A model generated the notes under the pieces. It was not told the origin of the DNA and searched no databases. It saw only the letters and a program-made list of their open reading frames with translations. This document shows, in pieces, positions 10,997 to 59,655 of a DNA stretch of 64,000 bases; within the stretch, counting starts at the first letter, position 1; each line of letters opens with the position of its first letter. A program made the position numbers and the translations under genes. This DNA is from Gallionellaceae bacterium (GTDB lineage: Bacteria > Pseudomonadota > Gammaproteobacteria > Burkholderiales > Gallionellaceae), in assembly GCA_009773615.1 (NCBI GenBank), contig WSYA01000007.1, positions 1 to 64,000 of the forward strand, read 5' to 3'.

Positions 10997-11907
10997 TTCC
11001 TCCCCCCAGCCACAGTTGCGGCATTCATTTGCCTAACAAGTGTAGCCGCATCTTTGATATCAATTCCCAAAGAACGTGCCACTTGCGGATTGACCATGAC
11101 TTCAAATTCGGACGGATATTGAATAGCTGACAAACGACCTGATTCGGCAAATTGTCTGGCCTGAGAAACCGCTTGCTTAGCGATTTGCTCCGGCGTGCTG
11201 AATACCGCACACAGCGCGCCCGCCCTGACATACGCTGGAGAAAACCCTATAATCGGAATTCCGGAGCGGTAAGTCTCGAGCAAAATATTTCTCATCGTCG
11301 ACGAGTTGTATATCTGCGCATCGGGAATAGCGAACAAAATTTCACTTTTTTGCAGCAAGGAATGCAGGTCACGATGTAGTGTCTCGTCCGATTCAAGCTG
11401 TTGCTCATGTAGCACTAACCGGCTCTCCGTCATCGCTTTGCGCAAACTGGTCATATCCGCTGATTGAGCGGAAACAAACAGCCCTACATTTTTTACATTA
11501 GGTAAAGCTACCGTGATCAAATCAACCTGGCGCCTGCTTGGTTGATCCAGATAAATAGCGGAAAAGATATTATTTTCCAGATGATCGAGTATTTGATGCT
11601 GCAACTTCACAAAGCCCGCTTTTGAAACCAGAACGACTAAAACCGGGAAGCGGGAGTTAAGAGCCATAGCGGCAGATTTGATGCCAACCGCCACGAGCAG
11701 ATCGGTTTCCTGCGGCAAGGAGCTAGTTTGATCGATGCTCAGCGATAGATTATTTCGTGCCGCCTCAGCCGCAAATGACCGGGCAAATTCACTATAGGAG
11801 GCACCCTCCTCCGCCAACAATACCGTCACGCGCAAAGATTTCGCCTGCGCTGAAAATGCCAGCAGCAGCAAAGCAATTACGAAGAGATATCGTTTCACCC
11901 GAATCAA
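10993..11907 (-). CDS. Periplasmic ABC_sub_bind-type binding protein
   Basis: This 304-residue protein has a signal peptide (MIRVKRYLFVIALLLLAFSA, cleaved near AQA-KS) and a two-lobe periplasmic fold resembling the ABC transporter substrate-binding family PF04392, with IPIIGFSPAYVRAGALCAVF and FEVMVNPQVARSLGI near the end. No permease or ATPase is adjacent. It lies between a TonB-dependent receptor and the hybrid kinase it overlaps, so it probably feeds the sensor rather than a transporter. The ligand is unknown. Confidence 0.8.
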   Translation of the reverse strand: MIRVKRYLFVIALLLLAFSAQAKSLRVTVLLAEEGASYSEFARSFAAEAARNNLSLSIDQTSSLPQETDLLVAVGIKSAAMALNSRFPVLVVLVSKAGFVKLQHQILDHLENNIFSAIYLDQPSRRQVDLITVALPNVKNVGLFVSAQSADMTSLRKAMTESRLVLHEQQLESDETLHRDLHSLLQKSEILFAIPDAQIYNSSTMRNILLETYRSGIPIIGFSPAYVRAGALCAVFSTPEQIAKQAVSQARQFAESGRLSAIQYPSEFEVMVNPQVARSLGIDIKDAATLVRQMNAATVAGGRK

Positions 11908-30544: not shown

Positions 30545-31849
30545 TTAGTTGTCCTCCATCAATTCATTCAGTGCAACAACCTTGTCGGTGACCTTGGCTC
30601 CCGCCATCACCCAGGCAACGACGTTATCTTCCAGCACCAGATTTTCCACTTCGCGCAAGCGCGAAGCATCTGCCGCATACCAGCGCACGACCTCTTCGGG
30701 ATGCTCATAACTCTCGGCATACTCTTGAATCAACGCTTTGACCTGCTCAGGTTGGGCATGCAGATCGTGTTTCTTGACCAATTCGGCCAAAATTAAGCCC
30801 AGCTTGACGCGTTTAGTTGCTCGCTCCTCGAACGCATCCGTCGGTAGCTGCATGCCTTTAGGTATCTTCATCCCGCGACCTTCCAAGTCGCGCAAGGTTT
30901 GTTGCATCAGGTTTTGCGCCTCGCCTTCCAGCAAAGCTTTAGGGACTTCCAGCTGACCGATCTTCAGCAACACTTCCATCGCATTGTCTTTGTTGCGCAC
31001 TTTGACGCGACGTTGAGCTTCACGGCTCAGATTGCCGCGAATTTCCGCCTTGAGCTTGGCCACGTCACCATCCGCCACGCCCAATGACTTGGCGAATTCC
31101 GCATCTACCTCGGGCAAGCGCGGCGCTTCAACGCTATGCAAGGTGACGGTGAAAGTCACTTGCTTACCGGCAACGTCTTTGCCGTGGTAGTCCGCAGGGA
31201 AAGTCATATCGAAAGCTTTGATGTCGCCGACCTTCATACCCACGATAGCCTTTTCAAAGTCGGGCAACATGCGGCTCGCGCCGAGCACCACAACAAAATC
31301 CTTGGCCTCGCCACCTTCAAAAACCACGCCATCCAATTTGCCGCTAAAATCGATGCGCACCTGATCTTCGTTTTGCACTGCACGTGTAGCCGGCTCGTAC
31401 ACGGCACGTTGCTTGCGCAATGTTGCCACCGTGTTTTCGACATCCGCGTCCGACAAATTAAAAACGATACGCTCGACAGATTCGGACTTTACCTCGCCCA
31501 CAACGACTTCCGGATATACCTCAAATGTCGCACTGTACTCGATTTGCGGCGCATTCAAGTCCGTAGTTTTAATTTCAAACTGGGGATAACCGGCCACCTG
31601 CAACTTGTTTTCCTGAGCAGCCTCAGCAAATGAGCGCTGCAAGCTTTCGCCAAGTACTTCTTGCTGAACTTGCGCCCCGTACTGCTGCTCGATAATCTTA
31701 AACGGCACCTTGCCCGGACGGAATCCATGAACCTTGGCGGTACGCCCCAGATGCTTCAGTCGAGATTCGATTTCACCACGCAACATAGGCTGTGGAATGG
31801 ATACGTTCAAACGGCGCTGCAATCCGCCCAGTGTTTCTACGCTCGACAT
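30545..31849 (-). CDS. tig: Trigger factor
   Basis: This 434-residue ribosome-bound chaperone and peptidyl-prolyl isomerase has the ribosome-binding signature [17 protein letters not shown], the FKBP-like domain ([19 protein letters not shown]) and the C-terminal helical chaperone arms. It is the first gene of the tig-clpPX-lon unit. Confidence 0.97.
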
Positions 31850-55877: not shown

Positions 55878-56160
55878 GAACGAATAATGTTCCTTGCGGA
55901 TAGGATAATCAAGATTGCACGCAGACTTCTCAACATTAGGCACTGCATGGCGATTAATTTTTTCTTGTATGTTTCCGGCAACCTGTAGACTCTTATTTAC
56001 ACTAAATCTGTCGTTTTGCAAATCGACACGAATGCAAGTTTTTGTGCGTAACAGTCCACTACCAAAATCAAGCACAGCAGGGATCCTCGATTTTTTCAAA
56101 TACCCCTTGATTCCATCCTATCCGCCGCCATATGCTGAGCATTGCAAAAGGGAGATTGCC

Positions 56161-56982
56161 ATGCCTACCGTCCGTCCGCCCGCTGTCGCAGGTCTGTTCT
56201 ATCCCGGCGAACCCGTGCAGCTTGCCCATGACGTGCAACAATTGCTGGCCGAGGCACGCTCCTATGACCTGATTCCCAAGGCACTGATCGTGCCGCATGC
56301 CGGTTATATATATTCCGGCGCCGTTGCAGCAACGGCTTACGCCGCACTCCGTTCCGTCGCCGCGCGTATCCGTCGTGTGGTGTTGCTCGGCCCGACCCAT
56401 CGTATCGCGGTGCGCGGGTTGGCACTACCCGGCGTTGATGCATTCGACACCCCGCTGGGTCGGATCATGCTGGATGCAGAGGCGATGCGCACAGCCTCCC
56501 ATCTGCCGCAAGTCACCCTCAGCGCCCAAGCCCATGCTCTGGAACACTCGCTGGAAGTGCAACTGCCGTTCCTGCAAAGCATATTGAGCGACTTTACCTT
56601 GCTGCCACTGGCGGTCGGCATGGCAACGCCGCAGGAAGTCGCCGAGGTTCTCGAAACTTTGTGGGGTGGCGATGAAACCCTGATCGTCGTCAGCTCCGAT
56701 CTCTCGCACTTCCTACCCTACGCTACCGCCCAGCGCGTGGATAACGAGACCGTGCAATCCATCCTGCAATTGCACCAGCCCTTGACGCATGAACAAGCCT
56801 GCGGCGGCACGCCGATCAACGGTCTGATCATCGCCGCGCGACATCACCATCTCGCCCCGCATTTACTCGATCTGCGCAACTCGGGCGATACTGCCGGAAC
56901 AAAAGACCAGGTGGTTGGATACACTGCTTTTGCGTTTACCCCGACAACAAAAATTGCGGAGCGGACAGGATATGTCGACTGA
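56161..56982 (+). CDS. amrB: Memo-like protein (AmmeMemoRadiSam protein B)
   Basis: This 273-residue member of the Memo family has PPAVAGLFYPG at the start, IVPHAGYIYSGAVAA and LLGPTHRIAV (candidate metal-ligand His), LEHSLEVQLPFLQ, and SSDLSHFLPY. Human Memo1 binds iron or copper. The ATG has AGGGAG 6 bases upstream. It overlaps the AMMECR1 gene by 11 bases and is followed by the radical SAM gene, forming the classic three-gene AmmeMemoRadiSam system whose product is not known to me. Confidence 0.93.
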   Translation: MPTVRPPAVAGLFYPGEPVQLAHDVQQLLAEARSYDLIPKALIVPHAGYIYSGAVAATAYAALRSVAARIRRVVLLGPTHRIAVRGLALPGVDAFDTPLGRIMLDAEAMRTASHLPQVTLSAQAHALEHSLEVQLPFLQSILSDFTLLPLAVGMATPQEVAEVLETLWGGDETLIVVSSDLSHFLPYATAQRVDNETVQSILQLHQPLTHEQACGGTPINGLIIAARHHHLAPHLLDLRNSGDTAGTKDQVVGYTAFAFTPTTKIAERTGYVD

Positions 56983-57538
56983 ACAAAAATCGCCGGAACG
57001 AGGACTTGTGCTGCTGCCGATTGCGCGCGCAACGATTGCCCGCGCCCTGAATGTGCCGCTAGTTGCTGACGAAACAGCAGCGTGGCTTGCCGAGCCGGGG
57101 GCATGCTTTGTAACGCTTACCCAACACGGTGAATTGCGCGGCTGTATAGGCACGTTGCAAGCGCATCGTTCATTGCTCGACGATGTCAAAGGGAATGCTG
57201 TATCTGCCGCTTTGCACGACCCGCGTTTTGCTCCATTAAGCAAGGAAGAACTCGGCATCACGACCATCGAAATTTCGTTGCTATCGCCAACTGAGCCGAT
57301 GGTGTACAAAAACGAGGCCGATGCACTCGCACAACTTCGCCCCGGTGCGGACGGAGTCGTGTTTGAATTTCGCCACTATCGCAGTACATTTCTACCACAA
57401 GTCTGGGAGCAGTTGCCCGAACCGCGACAGTTCATGGCCCATCTAAAACAAAAGGCCGGCTTGCCAGATGATTTCTGGGCGGAAGGGGTCAAACTATCGC
57501 GCTACACCGTCACAAAATGGCGTGAGCAAGCATCTTAG
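56972..57538 (+). CDS. amrA: AMMECR1-domain protein (AmmeMemoRadiSam protein A)
   Basis: This 188-residue protein has the AMMECR1 signature LRGCIGTLQAHRSL (invariant RGCIG) and later GVVFEFRHYRSTFLPQVW. The start at 56972 follows GGACAGGA and overlaps the Memo gene. AMMECR1 proteins are nearly universal and uncharacterised biochemically; the fixed linkage with Memo and the radical SAM protein implies a shared pathway. Confidence 0.94.
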   Translation: MSTEQKSPERGLVLLPIARATIARALNVPLVADETAAWLAEPGACFVTLTQHGELRGCIGTLQAHRSLLDDVKGNAVSAALHDPRFAPLSKEELGITTIEISLLSPTEPMVYKNEADALAQLRPGADGVVFEFRHYRSTFLPQVWEQLPEPRQFMAHLKQKAGLPDDFWAEGVKLSRYTVTKWREQAS

Positions 57539-57568
57539 CGCACGACACTTTCTATAAGGAGTTCTGAC

Positions 57569-58663
57569 ATGGACGAACCGATCAGCAGCGCCGAACGATA
57601 TCCGGCCAAGTACTGGCATCTTTTGGATGATGGACGCATCCAGTGCGACCTGTGTCCGCGCGACTGCAAGCTCCACGAAGGTCAGCGCGGCGCATGTTTT
57701 GTGCGCGGCCGCATCAACGATGTGATGGTGCTTACCACTTACGGGCGCTCCTCGGGTTTCTGCGTTGATCCCGTCGAAAAAAAACCGCTCAACCATTTCT
57801 ATCCCGGCAGCAGCATCCTGTCGTTCGGCACTGCCGGCTGCAACCTCGCCTGCAAGTTCTGCCAGAACTGGGATATATCCAAATCGCGCAGCTTCGACAA
57901 ACTCGCCGATCAAGCCACACCCGAAGCCATCGCCAATAGCGCAGTCAAACTGGGGTGCAAGAGCGTGGCCTTCACCTACAACGATCCGGTTATCTTTGCC
58001 GAATATGCGATGGACGTGGCCGATGCCTGTCACGAGCGCGGCATCAAGACCGTGGCGGTAACGGCGGGATATATGCACGACCAGCCACGCCGCGATTTCT
58101 ACGCCAAGATGGATGCGGCGAATGTGGATTTAAAAGCTTTCACCGAAGAGTTTTACTTCAAGCTCACAGGTGCACATCTGCAACCGATATTGGACACTCT
58201 GGTCTACATCAAGCATGAAACTCAGGTCTGGCTTGAGCTGACCACGCTGATTATTCCCGGACACAACGATTCCGATGCAGAGATACGCCGTATGAGCGAA
58301 TGGATCGTCAAGGAGTTAGGCACGGATGTACCGCTGCACTTCAGCGCGTTCCATCCCGATTACAAAATGACCGACGTTCCGCCAACGCCGCCTGCCACGC
58401 TGGAGCGCGCCCGCCACATCGCGCTGAACGCGGGTCTGCACTACGTGTATTGCGGCAATGTGCATGACATCGAAGGCGATACCACTTTTTGCTCATCCTG
58501 CAAAAATCCGCTGATCGTGCGCGACTGGTATGAGATTCGCACTTATGATTTAAAGGAAGACGGTAGCTGCCCGCATTGCGGAACGAAGCTGGCTGGGCAC
58601 TTTGGAAAATTCACGGGGCAATTCGGCAGACAGCGCATCCCTGTATCCTTTGGCGGAAGTTGA
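57569..58663 (+). CDS. amrS: Radical SAM protein AmrS (AmmeMemoRadiSam)
   Basis: This 364-residue radical SAM enzyme has the cluster motif GCNLACKFCQNWDIS (C-x3-C-x2-C). Extra cysteines occur at both ends: DLCPRDCKLHEGQRGACFV (N-terminal) and TTFCSSCKNP with SCPHCGTK (C-terminal), suggesting auxiliary metal sites. It resembles pyruvate-formate-lyase-activating-enzyme-type proteins but no glycyl-radical enzyme is adjacent. A strong site AAGGAG lies at 57556. Last gene of the triad. Confidence 0.94.
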   Translation: MDEPISSAERYPAKYWHLLDDGRIQCDLCPRDCKLHEGQRGACFVRGRINDVMVLTTYGRSSGFCVDPVEKKPLNHFYPGSSILSFGTAGCNLACKFCQNWDISKSRSFDKLADQATPEAIANSAVKLGCKSVAFTYNDPVIFAEYAMDVADACHERGIKTVAVTAGYMHDQPRRDFYAKMDAANVDLKAFTEEFYFKLTGAHLQPILDTLVYIKHETQVWLELTTLIIPGHNDSDAEIRRMSEWIVKELGTDVPLHFSAFHPDYKMTDVPPTPPATLERARHIALNAGLHYVYCGNVHDIEGDTTFCSSCKNPLIVRDWYEIRTYDLKEDGSCPHCGTKLAGHFGKFTGQFGRQRIPVSFGGS

Positions 58664-58879
58664 TTCCGAGTTTCAGTTGTCCGCTCCAACCCATTCGGCA
58701 GCGTTCTCCCCTATTGGAGCCAGCTTGCTCCAACAAAAACCGGGCTGCCGCAGTTTCACCGAGCTGGAATTTTTCCAGCTTTGCGTTGCCGGACAACAGC
58801 CGTCGGATCGGGTGACCAAGCGGGGCGCTTTGTGATGCCCGAATCAACGATGACCAGATAGCGTCCTGCCCACGGTGTG

Positions 58880-58981
58880 GAAATACGATCCGCACGAAGC
58901 ACCCATAGCTCCTCCGGTATATGCCTTCATGAAACGCGCGCGTGAGAAATACGATCCGCACGAAGCACCCATAGCTCCTCC
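58880..58981. repeat. 36-bp direct repeat at the end of the L,D-transpeptidase gene
   Basis: An identical 36-base sequence occurs at 58880-58915 and 58946-58981, exactly 66 bases apart. The copies encode EELWVLRADRIS. The first (upstream, in the gene) is followed by a stop and the second continues in the same frame (see finding). Confidence 0.9.
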
Positions 58982-59655
58982 CCTCTTGCCAGCGCCTGCT
59001 CATAATCGCCATCCAGAATTCCGTAGCGGTCGATGAAAGTATTCAGTGTCGCGGGTATGCGTATACACCCTTTTGACATAGGCACACCCAGGCGATTTTC
59101 GAGATAATCGGGGTCTGTCGCATGCAGCAACAAACGCATCTGACCTTCACCACCGCAGCCCCATCCGCGTTCCCCCTGAACCCAGCCAAAATCATAAACC
59201 CGCATCCCTTGTATACCAAAGCCGCGAATACCCAAATCATTGCGCGTGCCTTCAGCGCGAAAATCCTTGTTGTTCAGCGAGTGCTCGAACACGCCAAGCG
59301 GAGTGATGAAATGGTCGAACTTACCCGGCTTGCCGGTGGATGCGGGTGATGCGCCGATGAAGTGCCAGCGCTCAAATAAAGCCTGGGAGTCCAGCCAATA
59401 TATGAAAGCCGCCTGCACATGGGGGTTGCGATCCACCAGCAGCACATACTGTGATTCTGTAAGGTGGGGAATCTGTGCATTTTTCAATGCGACTTCGAGC
59501 AATTGCGCATAGAGCCTCTGAACCGCTTGCGGCAGATCAAGCCGTCGGTCGACCTCGCACTGGAAAACGGGGACGAGGGATGTCCCATCTTCGGCTTCGG
59601 ACGGCATGGAAATAGAGGTAAGCAACAAAACGATAAGCAGCAGGATGTTCTTCAT
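58927..59655 (-). CDS. L,D-transpeptidase (YkuD), C-terminally truncated by a duplication
   Basis: This 242-residue secreted protein has a signal peptide (MKNILLLIVLLLTSISMPSE) and a YkuD domain with HATDPDYLENRLGVP (H178) and MSKGCIRIP (catalytic C197). It cross-links peptidoglycan. The frame ends at RADRISHARVS, but the next 66 bases repeat the preceding segment and then continue in frame (TPWAGRYLVIVDSGITKRPA and on), which resembles the true family C-terminus. So the encoded protein is probably missing about 35 residues. Confidence 0.88.
   Translation of the reverse strand: MKNILLLIVLLLTSISMPSEAEDGTSLVPVFQCEVDRRLDLPQAVQRLYAQLLEVALKNAQIPHLTESQYVLLVDRNPHVQAAFIYWLDSQALFERWHFIGASPASTGKPGKFDHFITPLGVFEHSLNNKDFRAEGTRNDLGIRGFGIQGMRVYDFGWVQGERGWGCGGEGQMRLLLHATDPDYLENRLGVPMSKGCIRIPATLNTFIDRYGILDGDYEQALARGEELWVLRADRISHARVS

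Follow-up and report, generated by a model that had tools for sequence, protein, structure and literature searches.

The window analyzed here, a 64,000-nucleotide stretch (positions 1 to 64,000 of contig WSYA01000007.1) from a Gallionellaceae bacterium, carries on its minus strand a gene for a YkuD-type L,D-transpeptidase whose frame is interrupted by an insert within a direct repeat (Table 1). A 36-nt segment of the gene is present twice as an exact repeat (36/36), start-to-start 66 nt apart and in the same frame, as an initial annotation of this DNA had noted; the span given there, 58866-58990, contains the feature but is approximate. All borders are unambiguous, in that neither the duplication nor the 30-nt insert between its copies can be extended by even one base.

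Table 1. Features of the interrupted transpeptidase gene, in window coordinates
Feature	Position	Strand	Description
L,D-transpeptidase (YkuD) gene, truncated	58927..59655	-	242 aa, ending ...RADRISHARVS; stop codon 58927-58929 inside the inserted spacer
Duplicated target ("repeat") copy, gene-upstream	58946..58981	+	36 nt, GAAATACGATCCGCACGAAGCACCCATAGCTCCTCC
Inserted 30-nt "spacer"	58916..58945	+	GGTATATGCCTTCATGAAACGCGCGCGTGA; identical to priA, G000:C75:38667-38696; source 3' flank AGCGGCAA = N4GCAA PAM
Second duplicated target copy, gene-downstream	58880..58915	+	36 nt, identical to first
Stranded ancestral C-terminus	58756..58879	-	TPWAGRYLVIVDSGITKRPAWSPDPTAVVRQRKAGKIPAR-stop; frame retained downstream of the premature stop

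Within the 64-kb window, this pair is the sole exact direct repeat of at least 25 nt with a short gap, and the 36-mer has no further occurrence in the 2.37-Mb genome. Across ~578 kb of scanned DNA, a redundant set in which many loci overlap, the same geometry was otherwise seen only in true CRISPR arrays and in one 7-bp microsatellite (L037), which is unrelated; no second insert of the 36+30 kind was found in that DNA. Tandem Repeats Finder gave no report at the duplication site. The duplication and insert are known from one fragmented draft assembly (103 contigs) and represent a single allele of the species.

The interrupted L,D-transpeptidase gene

Read along the minus strand, the gene product runs ...EELWVLRADRIS-HARVS-stop and then, in the same frame, ...EELWVLRADRIS-TPWAGRYLVIVDSGITKRPA..., the premature stop being supplied by the inserted 30-mer. 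Homology to YkuD L,D-transpeptidases was established by PDB entry 8qzg, a solved YkuD-domain protein (153 bits, E 9e-44); a Pfam scan of the open frame (58930-59655, minus strand) gave no match at E 0.001, and NCBIfam gave none above cut-off. Both catalytic-type motifs aligned to 8qzg, HATDPD with His178 and SKGCIRIP with Cys197, lie upstream of the stop.

The ancestral state was evident from the relatives. The alignment of YkuD relatives proposed in the initial annotation placed TPWAGRYLVIVDS as the tail in all 51 relatives examined, from the same genus, the family, and beyond, each with an uninterrupted ...LRxDRxPTPWxGRYLVIVDS..., whereas neither the insert nor the ISHARVS ending occurred in any of them (0/51 each). 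The distance from SxGCIRIP to GRYL was 39 to 40 residues in the 49 relatives measured automatically and 62 (40+22) in the window, and subtracting 22 codons makes the window match the relatives exactly. Given the tail in every relative and the 22-codon excess here, the 66-nt insert is, by sequence comparison, derived and the uninterrupted tail ancestral. These results bear out the earlier description of a first copy that runs into ISHARVS and a stop and of a second copy that continues into the ancestral C-terminus.

Truncation removes the last ~40 residues and retains the catalytic region. Since His178 and Cys197 are kept and the alignment to 8qzg extends no further than residue 224, partial function of the truncated protein is possible. 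The gene is patchily distributed, with a match in 1 of the 7 congeners searched, and is therefore probably dispensable. Adjoining it (55915-58663) are MEMO1-like, AMMECR1-like, and radical-SAM genes that would form an AmmeMemoRadiSam-type triad, in which the radical SAM domain was tested.

The priA source and the resident type II-C CRISPR system

The 30-mer between the repeat copies is a 30/30 copy of this genome's own priA (NCBIfam priA, E 4.5e-177), its sole other occurrence in 2.37 Mb; the likelihood of a chance exact match of 30 nt in 2.4 Mb is negligible. Identity between priA and the insert stops at 30 nt, with no further matching bases at either end and no flanking homology. Because the priA gene itself remains intact, on a separate contig, the sequence was copied rather than moved. 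The initial annotation had attributed the premature stop to a duplication with a 30-base filler; the derived insert does add the stop, but the filler is an exact priA copy. A phage or plasmid source of the 30-mer was also considered and was unsupported, as phages and plasmids gave chance-level partial matches only.

The same genome encodes a single cas1, which lies in an intact cas9-cas1-cas2 operon with open frames (Cas9, TIGR01865, 760 bits; type II Cas1, TIGR03639, 274 bits; Cas2, TIGR01573, 77 bits). The closest solved Cas9 entries are 6kc8/6jdq, and a tracrRNA anti-repeat sits beside the cas9 start. We take the system to be type II-C from its operon layout, from which csn2 and cas4 are absent, and from the type of its Cas9. 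Its native array (G000:C70) consists of 8 identical 37-nt repeats, found nowhere else in the genome, and 7 spacers, all of them 30 nt, the same length as the insert. In 12 family loci with a related cas1, the array architecture is the same, with a unit of 67 and rarely of 66 or 68. At the cas2-proximal end of related arrays (L067-L077), the last repeat is followed by a conserved flank of approximately AGCYCTCACGCAAACGCCCGCC and a hairpin, a candidate acquisition-end leader of this II-C group. One congener cas1 (L069; G001:C401:24836-25756), 93% identical, contains an in-frame TGA and TAG, and the adaptation module there has apparently decayed.

Native spacers 6 and 7 (L012:11056-11085 and 11123-11152) are exact matches to G000:C86:28944-28973 and 30750-30779, a region identified as a resident Mu-like prophage by its transposase, portal, and terminase (PHROGs). 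Arrays of type II-C acquire at the 3' end (PMC12638026), which is consistent with the position of the two prophage spacers at that end. The 3' flanks of the two protospacers (AATCGCAA and GCTCGCAA) have positions 3-8 in common, and both carry N4GCAA in Neisseria-type notation, with N2TCGCAA as the longer shared form; N4GCAA as used here is derived from these two native protospacers only. Read in the orientation of the window plus strand, the 3' flank of the priA source also fits N4GCAA, a motif with a background frequency of 0.7% when one orientation is counted and 1.5% when either is allowed; if the true PAM is the longer N2TCGCAA, the priA site agrees at the last four bases only.

Several side observations concern the same system. 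N4GCAA, from the two native N2TCGCAA protospacers, is a candidate PAM for a 1123-aa Nme-like type II-C Cas9 (L063:1531-1538, L064 reverse strand, L011:1531-1538). An attempt to derive a PAM from a related Cas9 (G155) was dropped, as its spacers gave imperfect protospacers with inconsistent flanks. Native spacers had no matches in viral contigs, by exact scans of spacer parts, or in a phage collection. The prophage persists as the target of two native spacers with an apparently good PAM, although the cas9 frame is full-length; an anti-CRISPR, a silent system, or a mixed bin would explain its survival.

Origin of the insert

In spacer acquisition, Cas1-Cas2 attaches a duplex of spacer size by its 3' ends to two staggered sites a repeat length apart, and gap filling duplicates the intervening stretch. 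The geometry of the locus, together with the PAM at the source and the intact II-C adaptation module, points to spacer integration, not ordinary tandem duplication. We consider it very likely (probability of roughly 0.92) that the insert arose by a single natural off-target (ectopic) integration of a PAM-selected self-spacer by the organism's own II-C Cas1-Cas2. In such an event, a 30-bp prespacer would have been cut from chromosomal priA beside an N4GCAA PAM, and Cas1-Cas2 would have joined its 3' ends to two staggered positions in the transpeptidase gene, 36 nt apart, each strand having a G at its joint. Filling of the gaps would then have duplicated the 36 nt to leave a repeat-spacer-repeat unit outside the CRISPR array, with the spacer bringing the in-frame stop by which the enzyme would be cut short.

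The case shares most features of the off-target integration class, namely, a spacer-length insert, a copied protospacer without flanking homology, a PAM, intact cas1-cas2, and G at both joints; for repeat length and target resemblance, the correspondence is less clear. The PAM match at priA is a test that the off-target integration reading could have failed. At the target, each strand of the duplicated segment has a G at its 5' end. The duplication is one nucleotide shorter than the native repeat (36 versus 37 nt), and the identity between target and native repeat is 13/36 (p~0.1). Likeness to the native junctions is weak at best, with uncorrected p values of 0.006 to 0.05 across several comparisons; a 6/9 match at the minus-strand 5' end (p 0.01) was dropped, as it conflicts with the spacer orientation given by the PAM.

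The most serious competitor is templated or captured-fragment double-strand-break repair, in which, without CRISPR proteins, a break with ends staggered by 36 nt would have been filled in and a stray 30-bp priA fragment ligated between the ends. Its end product would be identical, a duplication around a foreign fragment, and the fragment does come from the same genome, yet repair of this kind leaves unexplained why the insert is exactly 30 nt, as are all native spacers, why the duplication is ~36 nt, and why the source has a PAM and both joints a G; microhomology, moreover, is absent from the insert junctions. We regard it as very unlikely. The fragmentation of the draft into 103 contigs raises a further explanation, less likely still, whereby an assembly or binning artefact would have produced a chimeric contig joining priA and transpeptidase sequence. 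Such a chimera would not give an exact 30-nt copy of a distant gene together with an exact 36-nt duplication and correct in-frame resumption, and the intact priA lies on a separate contig. Although a direct duplication does exist, its production by plain slippage of the 36-mer with random filler, or as a transposon footprint with target-site duplication, is scarcely credible: the filler is a 30/30 priA copy and not random, transposon ends were not seen, and transposon target duplications are generally far shorter than 36 nt.

Under off-target integration by Cas1-Cas2, the product would be a one-spacer pseudo-CRISPR. On the plus strand, the predicted duplex of the ectopic "repeat" with the tracrRNA has an energy of -13.3 kcal/mol, versus -54.4 kcal/mol for the native repeat and a background of -17.3 kcal/mol, so that tracrRNA pairing of the ectopic "repeat" is no better than that of random DNA. 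As it fails both in this pairing and in matching the native repeat, the ectopic site is not a functional CRISPR array, and no crRNA would be expected from it. Stored in a real array, a priA-targeting spacer should be toxic; its toleration here would be explained by a pseudo-repeat that makes no crRNA. Both the catalytic integration event and the lack of crRNA are what we infer from these features, and a survivor bias toward ectopic self-spacers would be predicted.

Known off-target integration and the probable type II-C case

Off-target integration is an already known kind of event, and this case belongs there. Nivala, Shipman and Church (2018, Nat Microbiol 3:310) reportedly overexpressed type I-E Cas1-Cas2 in E. 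coli, and reportedly listed Yersinia pestis and Sulfolobus islandicus as sources of putative natural examples. The present locus is like the neo-CRISPR genesis of that study in combining spacer-sized DNA outside an array with a repeat-length target duplication, but differs in belonging to type II-C, in lying in a coding gene, and in having an exactly traceable self source with a PAM. Off-target integration and neo-CRISPR genesis are cited in PMC11788318 and PMC9456107. In vitro, off-target integration by type II-A Cas1-Cas2 prefers G (Kim et al. 2019, PMC6895254); that work and this case have in common non-CRISPR sites, a G at the integration point, and a second site set by a ruler, whereas the in vitro products were likely half-site events and the present one went to completion in a natural genome. 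Campylobacter jejuni, also with type II-C, acquired uniform 30-nt spacers from the host chromosome (Hooton and Connerton, PMC4283603), but those spacers entered the CRISPR array, and this one did not. Elsewhere, "ectopic" integration denotes insertion at an internal repeat inside an array, likewise the wrong place, whereas here it lies outside any array. No natural type II-C example of off-target integration was found in the literature searched, outside which most subscription papers fall.

Most of what is known of off-target spacer integration comes from in vitro and overexpression experiments. The locus described here is a natural specimen that brings together a traceable source, a PAM, a target duplication, the ancestral allele, and the co-resident machinery, and it supplies a search signature for the natural frequency of such events: a 30-nt PAM-flanked self copy within a ~36-nt direct repeat. 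It is a tentative and rather doubtful extension that genes of type II-C bacteria are naturally and repeatedly disrupted by off-target adaptation, and that this is seen mainly where the captured self-DNA would kill the cell if stored in a real array, as the ectopic site makes no crRNA. The case illustrates that Cas1-Cas2 can act as a gene-breaking mutagen, and how a new CRISPR locus might start.
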